Source: Terriglobia bacterium (lineage in GTDB: Bacteria; Acidobacteriota; Terriglobia; Bryobacterales; Bryobacteraceae). Taken from it: DNA of 64,000 bases. How positions within the stretch are numbered: the first letter of the stretch is position 1; each line of letters opens with the position of its first letter. The notes beneath the pieces are model-generated. The model searched no databases, had not been told where the DNA came from, and was given only the letters and a program-made list of their open reading frames with translations. The stretch lies in assembly GCA_020073145.1 (NCBI GenBank), contig JAIQFS010000015.1, forward strand, positions 42,997 to 106,996, given 5' to 3'. Positions 13,947 through 20,729 of the stretch are shown piece after piece. The translations under genes and the position numbers were made by a program.

Positions 13947-14405
13947 TCAGCGCTGCTCGTTTCCGAATGATTCCCGCGAAGGCGCGACCCACTCTTCCAC
14001 CAGCGTTTCGACCGCGCGGAGCACACAATCCGACAGGGGGCGCCCTAGATCGTATGACTCCGCGCCGATCGTCACGATCAGGGCCTGCGGGACCCGGCCG
14101 TAAACTTGGCGGGCCAGCCGCAAGATGCTTCCTGGGCTGGCATGGTGCTCCAGCTCGGGGTGGCCGCTCTCCTGAACCGGCTCGGCACGGACCTCCCCCG
14201 GCGCCAGATCCGCTCGGGAATCGATGAACACCGATAGCTCGACACGGCTGACCGCCTCCGCCAACTCGGGCGTGAGTTGGTGTGCCTCCAGGGCCGAGAA
14301 GCCGCGGCAGCGTAACTTGCGAGCGGCATAAGGCCCTGCGCCGTCGTCGCCGCGAAGAGGGTTTCCGAATCCGATGATCAGAACCCCTTCAGGTGGCAAT
14401 CTCAT
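13947..14405 (-). CDS. hoxW: [NiFe] hydrogenase maturation protease
   Basis: A 152-aa M52-family endopeptidase. It starts LIIGFGNPLRGDDGAGPYAA, with the conserved nickel-sensing Glu/Asp positions of HycI/HyaD replaced in part (GDDG), and has FIDSRADLAPGE in the middle. HHASPGSILRLARQVYG resembles the conserved 'H..sp..ll..a..lyG' block. It removes the C-terminal peptide of HoxH after nickel insertion. ATG 14405 overlaps the end of hoxH by 17 bases, so the two are coupled; a longer start (14426) is possible. It is the last gene of the hox operon. Other maturation genes (hypA-F) are not in the window. Confidence 0.88.
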   Translation of the reverse strand: MRLPPEGVLIIGFGNPLRGDDGAGPYAARKLRCRGFSALEAHQLTPELAEAVSRVELSVFIDSRADLAPGEVRAEPVQESGHPELEHHASPGSILRLARQVYGRVPQALIVTIGAESYDLGRPLSDCVLRAVETLVEEWVAPSRESFGNEQR

Positions 14406-15804
14406 CCAGCAGCCTCCCGCCGGCATCCAACAATTCGATGCGCAGCGGCGTCAGGCCGCTGGCGTGCGTCGAACAGCTCAAGCACGGATCGTAAGCCCGT
14501 ACCACCGCCGAAACGCGGTTCAACATGCCTTCTTCCAGCTTGTCGCCGTGCACGTATCGCTTGCTGACCTGCTCCACGCTGCGGTTGATCGCCAGGTTAT
14601 TGTGGCCGGTGGCGATGACCAGGTTGGCCCACTTCATGGCGCCTTGCTCGTCCACCTTGTAGTGATGGATGAGAATTCCCCGGGGCGCCTCGGCGACGCC
14701 GATCCCTTCCAGAGCGTTGACTGACGCGCGGGCGCGCACGTGAGTATCGAGAATTCCCGGTGTGTCGAGCAAAATGCGAATCCGCTCGAGCGCATAGACG
14801 ATTTCGATGAGCCGCGCGTAGTGATAGTGAAAGGAACTGGCGACCACGCGTCCGAAACGCTGCCGGTATTCGGCCAGCTCGGCATCCGCCGCCGGTGTCC
14901 CCAGATGGTCCGCCACGTTCAGCCGGGCCAACGGGCCCACCCGGTAGATCCCGCCCGGGTAGCCCCGCGGCTTGAAGTACGGCGCCTTGAGATAGGTGTC
15001 GCGCAAGGCCGCTTCCCCAATCGCATCGGCGTATCGCTCGGCGGCCACAGTTTGCACCACGGCGCCGCCCGCGTCCTGGAAGCGGATGGCGCCGTCGTAC
15101 AGATGCAAGGCGCCGGCGGCATCCACCAGTCCGGCGTACATCGTCTCCATGGCGCCGAAGTGAGCGACTTCATCGGCAAACTGATCCAGCGTGCCTTTGA
15201 ACAGCTGGAGGGTCTTCCTCGCGATATCCCGCGCCGGGGCCAGGCCCATGAGGATCTCTTCGCGGATCTCCGGATCGAGCGGCTGGCCGATGCCGCCGGG
15301 GACAATGCCGGAGGGGTGCACCCGCTCGCCGGCCACGGCCTCGATGATCCGTTGGCCGAACTTGCGCAGTGCGATGCCGTCTTGCGCCAGCTCGGGGTGC
15401 TTCGCCGCCAGCCCCAGCACGTTGCGCCGGGCCGGATCGGAGTCCATGCCGAGCAGCAGATCGGGCGCCGAAAGATGGAAAAAACTAAGCGCATGCGACT
15501 GCACGAACTGGCCGCAGTGGATGAGTTCGCGAAGCCAGGCCGCCGCCGGCGGTATGCGCACCGCCATGATGGCGTCGCAGGCCTTGGCCGAGGCCATCAG
15601 ATGGCTGATGGGACAGATGCCGCAAATGCGCGCGGTGATCCCCGGCATCTCATAAAAAGGCCGGCCTTCCACGAATTTTTCGAAACCGCGGACCTGGGTG
15701 ACGTGAAACTGCGTGCTGGTCACCTGCCCGGCGTCGTCCAGGTGAATCGTGATCTTAGCGTGCCCTTCGATGCGGGTTACAGGGTCGATGACGATGCGTT
15801 TCAT
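14389..15804 (-). CDS. hoxH: Bidirectional [NiFe] hydrogenase large subunit
   Basis: A 471-aa catalytic subunit of a group 3 (NAD(P)-linked) hydrogenase. It begins KRIVIDPVTRIEGHAKI. The L1 site is RICGICPISH (Cys 61, Cys 64) and the L2 site DPCLSCSTH is near residue 440. These four cysteines hold the Ni-Fe(CN)2CO centre. The ~24 residues after the final His form the peptide removed by the protease encoded just downstream. The start ATG at 15804 has AAGGAG upstream. Together with HoxY it oxidises or makes H2, exchanging electrons with the HoxEFU module. The frame's upstream extension (to 16293) lies inside hoxY and is discarded. Confidence 0.96.
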   Translation of the reverse strand: MKRIVIDPVTRIEGHAKITIHLDDAGQVTSTQFHVTQVRGFEKFVEGRPFYEMPGITARICGICPISHLMASAKACDAIMAVRIPPAAAWLRELIHCGQFVQSHALSFFHLSAPDLLLGMDSDPARRNVLGLAAKHPELAQDGIALRKFGQRIIEAVAGERVHPSGIVPGGIGQPLDPEIREEILMGLAPARDIARKTLQLFKGTLDQFADEVAHFGAMETMYAGLVDAAGALHLYDGAIRFQDAGGAVVQTVAAERYADAIGEAALRDTYLKAPYFKPRGYPGGIYRVGPLARLNVADHLGTPAADAELAEYRQRFGRVVASSFHYHYARLIEIVYALERIRILLDTPGILDTHVRARASVNALEGIGVAEAPRGILIHHYKVDEQGAMKWANLVIATGHNNLAINRSVEQVSKRYVHGDKLEEGMLNRVSAVVRAYDPCLSCSTHASGLTPLRIELLDAGGRLLDEIAT

Positions 15805-15812
15805 GGCGCTCC

Positions 15813-16340
15813 TTACCCGAACTTCACTGCGGCGGCCGACGGCTTCTTGCCCGCCAGCAGGTCCGACAGCACCGCCAGAATGGCGGCGGGAGGCGGCGGA
15901 CAGCCCGGCAAATGCGCGTCCACGGCGACGAAATCGTGCAACGGGCGCGCCTGCGCCAGCAGCACGGGCACTCCGTCGGAAGGCACTCCGGGAGCCGTGT
16001 CGACGCCCTCGATGTAGATCCGCTGCAGCATCCGGCCCACCGGGATGGAATTCCGCATGGACGGCACGTTGCTGGTGACCGCGCAGTCGCCCAACGCCAC
16101 CAGGACGCGGGTGCGGGAGCGAATCATCTGGACTCTCTTCAGGTCTTCCTGGCTGGAGACCGCCCCCTCCACAAGGGTCACGTCCACGTCCTCGGGAAAC
16201 TCGGTGGCGTCCACCAGCGGGCCGTACACCAGGTCGGCCTTCTCGGCCACCGCCAGGATCCCTTCGTCGAGGTCCAGCAGCGACATGTGGCATCCCGAGC
16301 AGCCGTCAAGCCACACGGTGGCGAGTTTCAACTTGCTCAT
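15813..16340 (-). CDS. hoxY: Bidirectional [NiFe] hydrogenase small subunit
   Basis: A 175-aa short small subunit typical of group 3 enzymes. The N-terminal TVWLDGCSGCHMSLLDLDE, the middle ALGDCAVTSNVPSMRN and the late HLPGCPPPP supply the cysteines of the single proximal [4Fe-4S] cluster. It has no Tat signal, so the enzyme is cytoplasmic. The ATG at 16340 overlaps the hoxU stop (ATGA), and hoxH follows after 8 bases. The subunit links the Ni-Fe site in HoxH to the iron-sulfur chain of HoxU. Confidence 0.95.
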   Translation of the reverse strand: MSKLKLATVWLDGCSGCHMSLLDLDEGILAVAEKADLVYGPLVDATEFPEDVDVTLVEGAVSSQEDLKRVQMIRSRTRVLVALGDCAVTSNVPSMRNSIPVGRMLQRIYIEGVDTAPGVPSDGVPVLLAQARPLHDFVAVDAHLPGCPPPPAAILAVLSDLLAGKKPSAAAVKFG

Positions 16341-17047
16341 CGAGGCGCTCCTCTCTTCATCGCGACCTGCGCCACCTGGCTGCAGCGTTTGGCCATTTCT
16401 TCCACCGCGCGGCCCTTTTCGACCAGGGCTCCCGTGGGACAGGCCTGCACGCACTTGCCGCAATTGGTGCAGGCGAGCGCCTCCGCCCAGGGCTGATCGA
16501 GATCGCTGACCACGCGCAGCTGAATGCCGCGCGACATGAAATCCCACACGTGCGCGCCTTCGAGCTCGGCGCAAACCCGCACGCACCGCGAGCACAGTAC
16601 GCAGCGGTTGTGGTCGAGCACGTACCGTTCGTGGGACTGGTCGACCGGCAAAGCCGGGTAGCGGTACCGGAACCGGACGCTGGTGACGCCGATCGACGTG
16701 GCCAGGGCTTGCAGTTCGCAGTGCCCGTTGGAGACACAGACCGAGCACAGGTGGTTGCGCTCGGCCAGCAGGAGCTCGATGGTCATGCGGCGATAGGCCG
16801 TGAGCTTCGGCGAGCTGGTGGTGACGGCCATGCCGTCTTCCGCGGGCGTGGTGCACGCCGGGAGCAGCCGGTTGCTTCCGGAGACCTCCACGATGCACAG
16901 CCGGCAGGCCCCGGAATTCCGCAGCCCGTCGAAGTGGCACAAGGTGGGGATGGTCCGGCCCGCGGCCCGCGCCGCGTCGAGAATCGTCTCGCCGCGCGCG
17001 ACCTGCACCAGTTCCCCGTCGATGCGAATGGATCTCTTCTGTGGCAA
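16337..17047 (-). CDS. hoxU: Hydrogenase diaphorase iron-sulfur subunit
   Basis: A 236-aa NuoG-N-terminus-like subunit. It has a [2Fe-2S] ferredoxin domain (CHFDGLRNSGACRLC... with a later Cys). It also has a His-Cys-ligated [4Fe-4S] segment (NHLCSVCVSNGHCELQ), and two [4Fe-4S] ferredoxin motifs (CVLCSRCVRVC and CTNCGKCVQACP). I select the TTG at 17047 because AAAGGAGG sits 4 bases before it and the length then matches HoxU. The only other upstream start, TTG 17080, overlaps hoxF and lacks such a site. It wires electrons between HoxF and HoxY. Confidence 0.93.
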   Translation of the reverse strand: MPQKRSIRIDGELVQVARGETILDAARAAGRTIPTLCHFDGLRNSGACRLCIVEVSGSNRLLPACTTPAEDGMAVTTSSPKLTAYRRMTIELLLAERNHLCSVCVSNGHCELQALATSIGVTSVRFRYRYPALPVDQSHERYVLDHNRCVLCSRCVRVCAELEGAHVWDFMSRGIQLRVVSDLDQPWAEALACTNCGKCVQACPTGALVEKGRAVEEMAKRCSQVAQVAMKRGAPR

Positions 17048-17061
17048 GACGCCTCCTTTCC

Positions 17062-20000
17062 CTAGGCCCGCACGTCGCAACGCAGGCAGCGGGCAGCCTC
17101 CTCGATGGCGTCGGCCGTGGTTAGACCCTCGACCACCTCCTCCGAGCCGCGAACCCGGACGCTCACCGGCCTTTCGTGCCCGCGGCGCCGCGGCCCGCCG
17201 GCAGCCGGTGGCGGAGGCGTCTGGTCGTACTCGAACGCCTCCAGCAGCGCCGGGAAGCGGTCGCTGCCGGTCAGCCGCCGGTCCATGCTCCGCGCCGCCC
17301 TCTTTCCGTATGCCATGGCTTTGGTGACGTTGGACGCCCCGCTCACCACATCGCCGCCCGCGAAGACGTTGCTGCGGCTGGTCTCCAGCGTGAAGCGGTC
17401 GGCCACGATGGTCCCGGACGGGCTCAGCCCCAGCCCCGAGAGGCGGCCGAACTCCAGATCGACGCTCTCGCCGACGGCCAGGATCACGCTGTCGCAGTCG
17501 AATCGCGTAATCTCTCCCGTGGCCACCGGTTTCTGGCGGCCGGACTTGTCGAATTCACCCAGCCGCGTCTTCATGATTTCCAGGCCTTTGACATTCCCCC
17601 GCGGGTCGCCCACGATGCGGTGCGGGGCGGCCAGGAACAGAAACCGTACGCCCTCCCGCTCCGCCTCCGCCGTCTCTTCGGCGATCGCCGGCATGTCCTT
17701 GCGTTCGCGCCGGTAGACCACGGTCGTTTCGGCTCCCAGACGAACCGCCGTGCGCGCCGAGTCGATGGCGGCATTGCCGCCGCCGATCACCGCCACCCGC
17801 CGCCCCAGTGCTACCGGCTCGCCCCGCGCGATGGTTTCCAGAAACGGCACCGCGGCCCTCACGCCCTTCAGCTCGGCCCCGGCCACTGGGGCCGCGGCTT
17901 CCTGCCAGGTGCCGATCGAGAGAAACACCGCGTCGAATTGCCCCTCGATCTCATCCAAGCCGAGGTCCGCGCCCACCTTCTTCCCGCACTCGAATCGCAT
18001 GCCCACGCAGCGGATGCCCTCGATCTCCCGCGCCAGCACCGCTTTCGGCAGCCGGTACTCGGGCAGCGCGTACCGCAGCATCCCTCCCGGCTCCTGCCGG
18101 CTTTCAAATACCGTGACGTCGTGCCCGAGCAGCGCCAGGTAGAAGGCCGCGGTCAGCCCGGCGGGACCCGCCCCGGTGATCGCGATGCGCTGCCCGGTCG
18201 AAGCCAGCTTGCGGGCCTGGATCCGATCCATCACCGGCCCCCATTGCTCCGATCCCAACACCGAGTCCGCGATGAACCGGTGGACTTCCCGCATGTTCAC
18301 GGCCTCATCCACCGTCTGGCGGCGGCACCGGTCTTCGCACGGGTGCTGGCACACGCGCCCGGTGGAAGCCGGCAGGGGATTGTCGAGCAGTACCGAGATG
18401 AAGGCATCCTCCATGCGCCCTTCCTTCAACAATTGCAGGTACCTCGGCACGTTCATGTGCAGCGGGCAGCTGTTTTCGCACGGCGAGAGCGCCAGTTGCG
18501 TGCACACGCCGGCGTTGCACCGCCGCCCCAGGATGTGGTCTTCAAACTCGTGGCGGAAGTGCCGCATGGTGGTGAGCACCGGATTGGGCGCCGTCTGCCC
18601 CAGCCCGCACAATGACGTATCGCGGACCATGCGCCCCAGTTCGCCCAGCAGCTCCAGTTGCGCCAGCGAGCCGGTCCCTTCGGTGAAGCTGTTCAGGATA
18701 TCGAGCGCCTGATCGAGTCCCACGCGGCACGGCACGCATTTACCGCAGGATTCGGAATGTGTGAATTCGACGAAGTACCGGGCCACGTCGACCATGCAGT
18801 TGTCTTCGTCCATCACCACCATGCCGCCCGACCCCATGATCGATCCCAGTTGCGCCAGCGTTTCGTAATCTACCGGCGTATCGAACATCTCCTGCGGGAT
18901 GCAGCCTCCGGACGGCCCGCCGGTCTGCACGGACTTGATCGACTTGCCGCCGGCTCCGCCGCCGCCGATGTCGTAGACAAAGGTCTTGATCGGGGTGCCC
19001 AGCGGCATTTCCACCAGGCCGGTGTTCTGCACTTTGCCCACCAGCGAGAACACCTTGGTGCCCGCGCTCTTGGCGCTGCCGGTCTGGGTGAACCATCCCG
19101 CGCCCTTCACTACGATGGGTGCGATGTTGCACCAGGTCTCAACGTTATTGATATTGGTCGGCCGTCCCCACAGACCCCGCTGAGCCGGGAACGGCGGACG
19201 AGGCCGCGGGCGGCCCGCCAGCCCTTCAAGCGAGGCGATCAGCGCGGTCTCTTCGCCGCACACGAACGCTCCCGCCCCCTCCACCATCTCGATGTCGAAA
19301 TGGAAGCCCCGGCCCAGAACGTTGTCCCCCAGCAGGCCGTACTCCCGCGCCTGCTCGATGGCGTGCGTCAGCCGATGAACCGCCACCGGGTACTCGGCGC
19401 GGACATAGATAATGCCCAGGCTCGCCCCCATCACGAAGCCGCCGATAATCATGCCTTCCAACAGCGAGTGTGGGTCGCTCTCAATCTCGTTGCGGTTCAT
19501 GTATGCGCCGGGATCGCCTTCGTCCGCGTTGCAGATGATGTATTTGGCGTCGGCCGTGGCTTTGGCCAGATAATCCCACTTGATTCCCGTGCTGAAGCCG
19601 GCGCCGCCGCGGCCGCGCAGCCGCGCCGCTTTGATCTGCTCGATGACGCACGCAGGCTGGTTGTCGATCAGCACCTTATAGAGCGCCTGGTATCCGCCGA
19701 CCGCGACGTACTCTTCAATATCCTCCGGATCGATGAATCCGCAATTCCGCAGCACGATCTTCTTCTGCCCCGCGAAGAACGGCACTTCGTGCCAGGAGGG
19801 CAGTTCCGGATAGCCATGACCGTATTTGATCTGCGCGGTCAGGTGGTCCCACTCCTCCACCTTGCACCATGCCAGGTCCGGCGGAATCCGTCCGTCCAAG
19901 GCGTCCGCAAGGATGCGTTCCGCGTCTCCCTGCTGCACGCGGCGCAAGATCACCAGCGGGCTGCCGGGGATCCAGACGCCCACCAGCGGCTCCTCCGAAC

Positions 20001-20202
20001 ACGGCCCGAAGCACCCCACGCTGGCCAGGAGGCCGCCCGCCCGGTCGTTCGCCTCCGCCAGCGCGTGATACACGCCTTCGGCGCCGTTGCCGCGCCCGCA
20101 CGTCCCCATCCCCACCGTCACGCGCGGCACGTCCGGCAGCAGTTTCGCCAGCCCGGCTTCGCGCACCGCGTTGAACGTGCTGATGTCTTCCATGCGGCTC
20201 AT
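17062..20202 (-). CDS. hoxF: HoxF-type NADH diaphorase fused to a GltD/NfnB-like module
   Basis: A 1046-aa fusion. Residues 1-100 are a thioredoxin-like [2Fe-2S] domain (GMGTCGRGNGA, GCFGPC) with the three-Cys pattern of HndC/HydB rather than NuoE. Residues 110-560 are the NuoF/HoxF part: RGRGGAGFSTGIKW for NADH, FMN and SLBB regions, and SCGKCVPCR plus a later Cys for [4Fe-4S]. Residues 565-650 are a GltD-type [4Fe-4S] domain (NSCPLHMNVPRYLQLL, GRVCQHPCEDRCRR). Residues 670-980 form a two-dinucleotide-domain flavoprotein with FAD loop ITGAGPAGLTAAFYLALLG and NAD(P)H loop AVIGGGNAAIDSART, and the FAD closure NVFAGGDVVSGASNV. The end carries CLRC. Ordinary HoxF is about 540-600 aa. ATG 20202 overlaps the hoxE stop. 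The extra module may add NADPH or a second flavin to the electron path. Confidence 0.93.
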   Translation of the reverse strand: MSRMEDISTFNAVREAGLAKLLPDVPRVTVGMGTCGRGNGAEGVYHALAEANDRAGGLLASVGCFGPCSEEPLVGVWIPGSPLVILRRVQQGDAERILADALDGRIPPDLAWCKVEEWDHLTAQIKYGHGYPELPSWHEVPFFAGQKKIVLRNCGFIDPEDIEEYVAVGGYQALYKVLIDNQPACVIEQIKAARLRGRGGAGFSTGIKWDYLAKATADAKYIICNADEGDPGAYMNRNEIESDPHSLLEGMIIGGFVMGASLGIIYVRAEYPVAVHRLTHAIEQAREYGLLGDNVLGRGFHFDIEMVEGAGAFVCGEETALIASLEGLAGRPRPRPPFPAQRGLWGRPTNINNVETWCNIAPIVVKGAGWFTQTGSAKSAGTKVFSLVGKVQNTGLVEMPLGTPIKTFVYDIGGGGAGGKSIKSVQTGGPSGGCIPQEMFDTPVDYETLAQLGSIMGSGGMVVMDEDNCMVDVARYFVEFTHSESCGKCVPCRVGLDQALDILNSFTEGTGSLAQLELLGELGRMVRDTSLCGLGQTAPNPVLTTMRHFRHEFEDHILGRRCNAGVCTQLALSPCENSCPLHMNVPRYLQLLKEGRMEDAFISVLLDNPLPASTGRVCQHPCEDRCRRQTVDEAVNMREVHRFIADSVLGSEQWGPVMDRIQARKLASTGQRIAITGAGPAGLTAAFYLALLGHDVTVFESRQEPGGMLRYALPEYRLPKAVLAREIEGIRCVGMRFECGKKVGADLGLDEIEGQFDAVFLSIGTWQEAAAPVAGAELKGVRAAVPFLETIARGEPVALGRRVAVIGGGNAAIDSARTAVRLGAETTVVYRRERKDMPAIAEETAEAEREGVRFLFLAAPHRIVGDPRGNVKGLEIMKTRLGEFDKSGRQKPVATGEITRFDCDSVILAVGESVDLEFGRLSGLGLSPSGTIVADRFTLETSRSNVFAGGDVVSGASNVTKAMAYGKRAARSMDRRLTGSDRFPALLEAFEYDQTPPPPAAGGPRRRGHERPVSVRVRGSEEVVEGLTTADAIEEAARCLRCDVRA

Positions 20203-20729
20203 TGCGATTCCTTCCCGGCCAGCGCCTGCACTTCGCGCTTGAGTACTCCTTCGTTCATGTGGCCGCAGATCCGGTGGTCTACTTCCACCACTGGCGCCAG
20301 CGCGCACTGTCCGAAACACGCCACGGTTCGAATGGTGAACCGTCCGTTGGGCGTGGTTAGCGTCAGCTTATCCGCGTGGGCACCGTCTTCGTCCAGTCCC
20401 AGCTCCAGCCGCAGGCTCTCCAACAGGCTCCGCGAGCCTCGCGTGTGGCACGCCGTGCCGCGGCAGATGGCGATGGTGTGGTCGCCTTGCGGCTCGCGGT
20501 TGAATAGCGCATAGAACGTGACCACGCTGAAGATCTGCGAAAGGGACGTGCCGGTCTTTTCGGCGACGTAGCGAATGGTGTCGAGGCAGAGGTATTTACG
20601 GGGTTGGTGCTCCTGAACTTCCTCCAGGATTCCCAACAGCGCACCCGGGCGGGCACTGCGGCGGGCAATCACCTGATCGATGAAGGCCCGCTCCCCCGCG
20701 TCGGGCCGGAGGCCGTCCGTGGTGGGCAT
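20199..20729 (-). CDS. hoxE: Hydrogenase diaphorase [2Fe-2S] subunit
   Basis: A 176-aa NuoE-like protein. A helical N-terminus (LLGILEEVQEHQPRKYL, VAEKTGTSLSQIFSVVTFYA) precedes a thioredoxin-like fold. The cluster ligands are CRGTACH and CFGQC. It is the first gene of the hox operon and overlaps hoxF by 4 bases. Its presence marks a five-subunit HoxEFUYH enzyme. HoxF also has its own thioredoxin-like domain, so the complex has two such [2Fe-2S] domains. It starts with ATG 20729 preceded by AAGGA. The 103-base gap to the divergent RRM gene must hold both promoters. Confidence 0.95.
   Translation of the reverse strand: MPTTDGLRPDAGERAFIDQVIARRSARPGALLGILEEVQEHQPRKYLCLDTIRYVAEKTGTSLSQIFSVVTFYALFNREPQGDHTIAICRGTACHTRGSRSLLESLRLELGLDEDGAHADKLTLTTPNGRFTIRTVACFGQCALAPVVEVDHRICGHMNEGVLKREVQALAGKESQ

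Follow-up and report, generated by a model that had tools for sequence, protein, structure and literature searches.

The window analysed here is a 64,000-nucleotide stretch from a Terriglobia bacterium of the family Bryobacteraceae (assembly GCA_020073145.1, contig JAIQFS010000015.1, positions 42,997 to 106,996). It carries a [NiFe] hydrogenase operon in which HoxF is fused to a GltD-like flavoprotein. The genes run along the minus strand from 20729 to 13947 in the order hoxE, hoxF-gltD, hoxU, hoxY, hoxH, and hoxW, nearly contiguous and head to tail, with ATGA overlaps at two junctions (hoxE/hoxF and hoxU/hoxY). A sequence-only reading of this region had proposed such a fusion, with hoxEUYH and hoxW packed around it, and both proposals held up: all five neighbours were found, and the fusion gene (17062..20202, minus strand, read from 20202 to 17062) is open over all 1046 codons, including residues 560–580, where that reading had allowed for a stop or frameshift. 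Four Pfam domains were detected above their cut-offs along the chain, namely Complex1_51K (190–361), NADH_4Fe-4S (472–556), Fer4_20 (564–648), and Pyr_redox_2 (672–965).

The first 570 residues (18493..20202, minus strand) form a HydB/BfuB part, as indicated by motif counts and by phmmer alignments to 7t2r_B, 9n5u_B, and 8oh5_B that extend up to residue ~570. This part begins with a three-Cys thioredoxin-like domain (C35, C64, C68), at the place where Bfu enzymes bear the B5 [2Fe-2S] cluster; it was already recognized in the earlier reading and is of the StnB and T. sibiricus NfnB kind, unlike the pattern in A. mobile (Acetomicrobium mobile). It is followed by a predicted site for flavin mononucleotide (FMN) and nicotinamide adenine dinucleotide (NAD(H)), by ligands for the B1 [4Fe-4S] cluster (C486, C489, C492, C532), and by a B2 or Zn site made up of the three generally present Cys and of the His linked to bifurcation (C469, H556, C562, C567). 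The remaining residues (571–1046; 17065..18492, minus strand) constitute a GltD/NfnL-type part. Its seven Cys (C575, C579, C618, C622, C626, C1039, C1042) and one non-Cys ligand would accommodate two [4Fe-4S] clusters, so that the [4Fe-4S] domain anticipated from the sequence is present as Fer4_20 but with ligands for two clusters rather than one. A site for flavin adenine dinucleotide (FAD) and one for the phosphorylated dinucleotide NADP(H) (GGGN, and YRR at 830–832) are also predicted. The Cys pair found at the N-terminus of NfnL is relocated to the C-terminus (RCLRC, 1038–1042), as in StnC and 9bov_A, and is kept in 96 of 99 aligned fusions, while YRR, common to the NADP(H) binders NfnL and StnC, is present in 97 and R717, aligned with NfnL R201, in all 99. 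The match to NCBIfam PRK12771 (NF009410) scored 474.6 bits, under the curated cut-off of 516. Overall, sequence and structural model support two nucleotide and two flavin sites in one chain, as had been suggested, with the cofactors themselves predicted.

What the earlier reading had missed is that the ferredoxin domain of HydB is gone and that GltD stands in its stead. In bifurcating HydB, the "C....C" of the B2 site is followed by a two-cluster ferredoxin domain (as in the tails of L079, L089, L091, L092, and L129), whereas in the window and in at least 74 fused loci of a genome scan, which retained the best 80 loci and is not a census, GltD follows the B2-site Cys directly. Pfam detected no ferredoxin domain with B3/B4 clusters (IPR017896) in the window protein, and none stands at the joint in the window protein or in these loci; Fer4_20 occupies its place. 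The spacing across the joint, from C567 to C575 (18478..18504, minus strand), is eight residues in 99/99 aligned fusions, down to 41% identity with the window protein, compared with 12–13 residues from the B2 Cys to the next Cys in ferredoxin tails (manual count). These 99 rows comprise the window protein, 72 of 85 fused loci (the other 13 were left out as shorter than 900 residues), and 26 of 120 listed homologues. Since the joint is identical in all of them and kept across many genomes, a frameshift or assembly artefact was ruled out. The model of the fusion is of high predicted quality (predicted local distance difference test score, pLDDT, 90.8; predicted template modelling score, pTM, 0.85), in place of an earlier, poor model built from 14 similar rows (pLDDT 52.6), which was not used. 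It superposes on the bifurcating BfuB chain 9bp5_B over 544 residues at 1.9 Å, with outermost aligned residues 26–638 of the model and 1–582 of the chain, ferredoxin end included. Pfam, alignment, model, and superposition thus agree on the replacement of B3/B4 by a DPD_II and an FAD/NAD(P) domain that characterizes sub-type I BfuB.

The other operon genes, all on the minus strand, complete a HoxEFUYH-type set. hoxE (20199..20729) encodes a BfuC/HydC-type protein of 176 amino acids, identified by Pfam 2Fe-2S_thioredx, comparison with the Protein Data Bank (PDB), and its Cys at 89, 94, 138, and 142, which are predicted ligands of the [2Fe-2S] cluster C1. hoxU (16337..17047; 236 amino acids) has a TTG start, assigned from the sequence and preceded by AAAGGAGG; its product exceeds the NCBIfam HoxU cut-off, carries Cys that would fit one [2Fe-2S] and three [4Fe-4S] clusters, and contains neither H-cluster motifs, as the BfuA of sub-type I does, nor a GltD module like that inside the NuoG-like subunit of Stn. 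hoxY (15813..16340; Pfam Oxidored_q6) encodes the small hydrogenase subunit with a predicted proximal [4Fe-4S] cluster. hoxH (14389..15804; Pfam NiFeSe_Hases) carries RICGIC and DPCLSC motifs, i.e. the paired CxxC NiFe ligands, and a C-terminal tail for protease cleavage; these ligands and its kinship to group 3 HoxH/HydL identify the product as a group 3 [NiFe] large subunit. hoxW (13947..14426, with a start at 14426 or 14405) encodes a maturation protease above the NCBIfam hydrog_prot cut-off, with no Pfam match at E 0.001.

Comparison with the PDB linked the operon to electron-bifurcating enzymes. The first half of HoxF was closest to A. mobile NiFe-HydB (7t2r_B; residues 28–570, 633 bits), with T. 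sibiricus NfnB, A. woodii HydB, and StnB also matching; HoxU was closest to A. mobile HydA (7t2r_A), and HoxE to HydC of T. kivui (8a6t_C), then of A. mobile (7t2r_C). HoxH scored 521 bits against 7t2r_D and 409 bits against the classical HoxH 5xf9_D. The top matches of these four proteins were all bifurcating enzymes, and the NCBIfam cut-offs for HoxE and for the NuoF family were not reached. As NuoF-type chains scored below those of HydB, NfnB, and StnB, we rejected the assignment as an ordinary HoxF. From residue ~572, the second half matched the GltD modules of Caldicellulosiruptor NfnA, T. sibiricus NfnA, and StnC, then NfnL.

The fusion is broadly distributed. All 120 homologues listed, of 7999 scored, covered 100% of the chain at 70–86% identity, and the fused loci of the genome scan came from 19 named phyla. 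Full-length homologues combined with a constant joint length indicate more than chance, and these homologues, together with the description in silico of the same architecture (PMC11406978), ruled out that the fusion is unique. Among 61 genomes searched (its own and 60 relatives), it was found in 12/37 of the same family (11 full length, including the window, and one cut at a contig edge), in 0/4 congeners, and in 0/24 genomes outside the family. Ten of the 11 relatives fetched have the order hoxE-F-U-Y-H, the eleventh (L122) beginning inside the fusion and continuing with U-Y-H, so that the same domain order beside hoxYH, which the sequence-only reading had suggested looking for, as well as hoxE, recur in 10/10 family relatives with enough contig; a hoxW-like hit was obtained in 3/11. 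The genome of the window bacterium also holds a second HoxE/HoxF/HoxU-like set (L130:4562-9464, C11), with a HoxU-like frame of 965 amino acids.

The genes next to the fusion vary. Of the 85 fused loci listed, an H-cluster subunit accompanies 26 and a [NiFe] large subunit 16, while the remaining 43 have neither in view, many of them being cut by contig ends. Pfam searches of 10 selected neighbours revealed molybdopterin formate-dehydrogenase-like proteins (L050, L062, L037) and Glu_synthase domains (L055, L059). This recurrence of a HoxE-HoxF(GltD) core beside several kinds of third-substrate module is what PMC9304861 describes for Bfu enzymes, in which one core is found beside varied modules. 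Individual loci include a fused core with formate-dehydrogenase-like subunits and a methylene-tetrahydrofolate reductase C-terminal domain gene (L050:3713-10785), one adjoining a molybdopterin formate-dehydrogenase-like subunit (L062:10086-12821), and one beside a molybdopterin protein that itself carries a fused HoxE-like domain (L037:3598-6519). At L055:10832-12475 and L059:10880-12538, the core has a Glu_synthase-domain protein and a short HoxU as neighbours, with which it may form an NAD/NADP-linked glutamate-synthase-like complex. At L052:5810-14279 and L044:4601-12230, a HydB-GltD fusion is followed by a second HoxE, an unfused HoxF, and one [FeFe] HydA, i.e. two diaphorase arms for a single hydrogenase; related double sets occur at L046, L048, and L086. 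In the last of these, the HydB and GltD parts occupy two overlapping frames (L086:7878-10875), through either a genuine split of the gene or a frameshift introduced by sequencing.

Phylogenies of the individual subunits indicate that the operon is chimeric. In the HoxF tree, the window belongs to a clade made up of 16 fused rows (support 99) adjoining L018–L021 (91). Three of these four loci (L018, L019, L021) carry H-cluster subunits and the fourth, L020, is cut; unfused acidobacterial HoxF are placed elsewhere. This tree was computed by a quick method without bootstrap, and we took from it no more than the position of the window and the "fused" label; the counts for the labels "short" and "Fd" were left aside, "short" having also caught the ferredoxin-bearing L079, L089, L091, and L092. 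HoxE gave the same picture, with the 16 rows (100/98) grouping with L018–L020 (99/84) separately from unfused rows. HoxU places the 16 fused-clade rows and six unfused rows in one clade of 22 (98/91), and in the HoxH tree 13 fused and six unfused rows together form a clade of 19 (100/99), whose weakly supported neighbour is A. mobile HydL (81/70), the 5xf9 HoxH falling outside. The HoxE and HoxF side thus goes with [FeFe]-hydrogenase operons, and the HoxU and HoxH side with the Hox of unfused acidobacterial operons. This is most simply explained if the HoxE-HoxF arm was exchanged between an [FeFe] operon and a [NiFe] one. That the joint is identical throughout favours a single fusion event, while nine changes of the "fused" label on the HoxF tree, at least three of them forced by starred branches, argue against a single gain without later losses or swaps. 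The window clade consists mostly of same-family genomes and of metagenome-assembled genomes (MAGs) named Bryobacterales or Acidobacteria. Its 16 rows were labelled as [NiFe]-associated by kinship rather than by an observed hoxYH, which is on the contig for 12 of them. Two MAGs labelled Chloroflexi and Ancalomicrobiaceae (L015, L016) carry acidobacterial-type fused genes, through either gene transfer or mis-binning.

Three loops (AFM, F282, GGPSG) and a His-coordinated B2 site have been reported to set bifurcating enzymes apart from non-bifurcating forms (PMC8880783). Within the window clade (16 HoxF rows; L122, cut at a contig edge, was excluded), the first loop reads AYM in 15 and AFM in one, and F, GGPSG, the B1 Cys, and the B2-site Cys/His/Cys/Cys are kept in all. 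The 68 other fusions have AFM (48) or AYM (20), F in 67, GGPSG in 64, and the B1 Cys in 68, so that B1 is retained in 84/84 fused rows. Among six unfused acidobacterial HoxF, AFM is found in six, F in four, and GGPSG in five, whereas three NuoF-like rows have TFK, TCK, or TYA for AFM and Y for F, with GGPSG in one. The B2 site is kept in four of the six unfused proteins; those at L126:1808-3589 and L128:6320-7966 lack its Cys and His.

Based on these observations, we propose, with a probability of about 0.45, that the window encodes a HoxEFUYH-type [NiFe] hydrogenase, with GltD at the position of the ferredoxin domain, that splits H2 electrons between NAD+ at the FMN and NADP+ at the FAD of GltD. 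The flavoprotein fused at this point would likely let the enzyme distribute H2 electrons over NAD and NADP, and NADPH could then be formed in the absence of ferredoxin. Electrons would enter at the HoxH NiFe site and pass through the HoxY cluster, the HoxU clusters, and HoxF B1 to the FMN, from which a hydride would be transferred to NAD+. A second branch would lead from the FMN through a mobile HoxE [2Fe-2S], possibly the B2 or Zn site, and the two Fer4_20 [4Fe-4S] clusters to the FAD and on to NADP+, the second acceptor that would replace ferredoxin. The net reaction would be 2 H2 + NAD+ + NADP+ <-> NADH + NADPH + 2 H+, in a reversible manner. Because YRR is shared with the NADP(H)-binding NfnL and StnC, the GltD module is most likely an NADP(H) outlet. 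The earlier suggestion of a transhydrogenase or bifurcating enzyme is in part sustained by the two nucleotide and flavin sites, the bifurcating top PDB matches, and the largely kept motifs, although the activity remains a prediction and bifurcation by the window enzyme is something we infer. Somewhat more tentative is the wider proposition of a ferredoxin-free bifurcating [NiFe] hydrogenase, with an FMN/Fe-S core hard-wired to an NADP+ reductase and yielding NADH and NADPH from H2, whose HoxE and HoxF(GltD) form an exchangeable NADP-using Bfu cassette joined to [FeFe], [NiFe], formate-dehydrogenase-like, and glutamate-synthase-like modules.

Several points weigh against this proposal. A full B1–B5 set appears to be needed for bifurcation according to PMC11406978, and B3/B4, the BfuB-defining ferredoxin domain, are absent from the window protein. 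The loop motifs are poorer proof of bifurcation for being mostly present also in unfused acidobacterial HoxF, where there is no C-terminal acceptor; the first loop is AYM rather than AFM in the window clade, and GGPSG also occurs in one NuoF-like row. A Cys of the A. mobile B2 cluster, C476, corresponds to T507 in the window protein, and this Cys is reported as not conserved in FeFe forms (PMC8880783); by analogy with StnB, the B2 site may bind only Zn. The small potential difference between NADH and NADPH would make the gain from coupling lower than with ferredoxin, and the putative NADP preference derives from one motif. Two more distant acidobacterial MAGs of the same clade carry hoxEFU(GltD) without adjoining hoxYH (L014:2426-8926, L017:4743-12544), hoxU being followed by an RraA-like gene or a gene without assigned family and then accA (in two further members, L013 and L015, the contig is too short). 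A cut hoxH (51% identity, with hoxW) lies on another contig of the L014 genome, and the search returned no HoxH match in the L017 genome, a MAG for which completeness was not given. In these two cases the module may function by itself, e.g. in transhydrogenation, or may associate with hydrogenase subunits whose genes lie elsewhere. To our knowledge, no activity is known for any HoxF-GltD fusion.

The L014 and L017 loci keep open the transhydrogenase idea, and fit an uncoupled enzyme, with the FMN serving NAD(H), the GltD FAD serving NADP(H), and a shared cluster chain without bifurcation. We regard this as a serious but less probable explanation: both nucleotide sites are predicted within one chain, the ferredoxin domain is absent, and the unfused sister operons (L123–L128) retain hoxUYH without a C-terminal acceptor, with the B2 site lost in 2/6, yet in the window clade the B2-site ligands are intact in 16/16 rows and the loop motifs are kept except for F to Y in AFM, and hoxE is never missing from family relatives with enough contig. 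That the GltD FAD is instead a second bifurcating centre, as PMC11406978 proposes for sub-type I BfuB, or NfnAB-like and feeding external ferredoxin, seems unlikely. The invariant Arg aligned with NfnL R201 would suit this proposal, but StnC has the aligned Arg and an FAD that does not bifurcate (PMC10482914), none of the six operon genes is NfnA-like, and the module has the StnC-type topology with a C-terminal RCLxC pair. Still less probable is that the GltD arm is no catalytic outlet and serves for reactivation of an oxidised NiFe site by NADPH in an aerobe. NADPH reactivates the soluble hydrogenase of Ralstonia, and O2 exposure of the host is likely given its five COX1-family matches above cut-off; the same arm, however, accompanies [FeFe] subunits in 26/85 fused loci listed and also lies beside formate-dehydrogenase-like subunits.

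In addition to the COX1-family proteins, the host genome matched profiles for PntB, HypD, and four POR-family proteins, with no match to RuBisCO-large, leaving an H2-driven Calvin cycle unsupported. With this gene set, the enzyme may help the host to balance its redox state as O2 levels shift. At physiological potentials of about −280 mV for NADH (PMC9304861) and about −370 mV for NADPH (PMC6288185), the computed H2 balance is ~0.1 kPa for the coupled reaction, ~3.3 kPa for NADP+ alone, and ~3 Pa for NAD+ alone. If coupled as proposed, the enzyme would thus run above ~0.1 kPa H2, whereas NADP+ reduction alone needs more than ~3.3 kPa. Two nicotinamide pools would be served by ferredoxin-free bifurcation in a bacterium whose genome encodes aerobic terminal oxidases, and NADPH would be obtained directly from H2. 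Such an enzyme would also broaden the Bfu family, with the low-potential acceptor arm swappable and not only the third-substrate arm. The unfused sister operons of the same bacterial family offer a natural comparison set.

Among known systems, classical HoxFUYH and HoxEFUYH enzymes (5xf9; cyanobacterial Hox) share the subunit set but lack the GltD module, and their HoxH, represented by 5xf9, lies outside the window HoxH clade. A. mobile NiFe-HydABCSL (PMC8880783; 7t2r, 7t30) is the nearest solved relative of the HoxF core, HoxU, and HoxH, but it works with ferredoxin, has a HydB that closes with a ferredoxin domain (B3/B4), and has a HydA of 692 residues compared with 236 in HoxU. The Stn and Nfn-Bfu transhydrogenases (PMC10482914, PMC7483475; 8oh5, 9bov, 9n5u) combine a HydB-type core with a GltD of the same topology serving NADP(H); there, however, GltD belongs to the A-type, NuoG-like subunit (StnC) and feeds the FMN rather than being fused to the HydB-like subunit, StnB retains its ferredoxin domain, and there is no hydrogenase. 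BfuB has been defined by domains that include the ferredoxin domain (PMC9304861), so that the fused proteins probably fall outside that set. The closest parallel is sub-type I BfuABC of [FeFe] group A3, described in silico (Zheng and Huang 2024, PMC11406978), in which B3/B4 are likewise swapped for DPD_II (Fer4_20) and an FAD/NAD(P) domain, with BfuC and BfuA adjoining. The fused architecture is thus in print for [FeFe], with no activity known to us. In sub-type I, the third-substrate module is the [FeFe] H-cluster BfuA, and the FAD is proposed as a possible second bifurcation centre, whereas the window has HoxUYH with a NiFe site and, in our reading, an NADP outlet. We found no report in the open-licence PMC literature of this fusion with a [NiFe] hydrogenase, and the pairing of a sub-type I-like fused BfuB with a [NiFe] enzyme is what the window adds to the architecture known with [FeFe].

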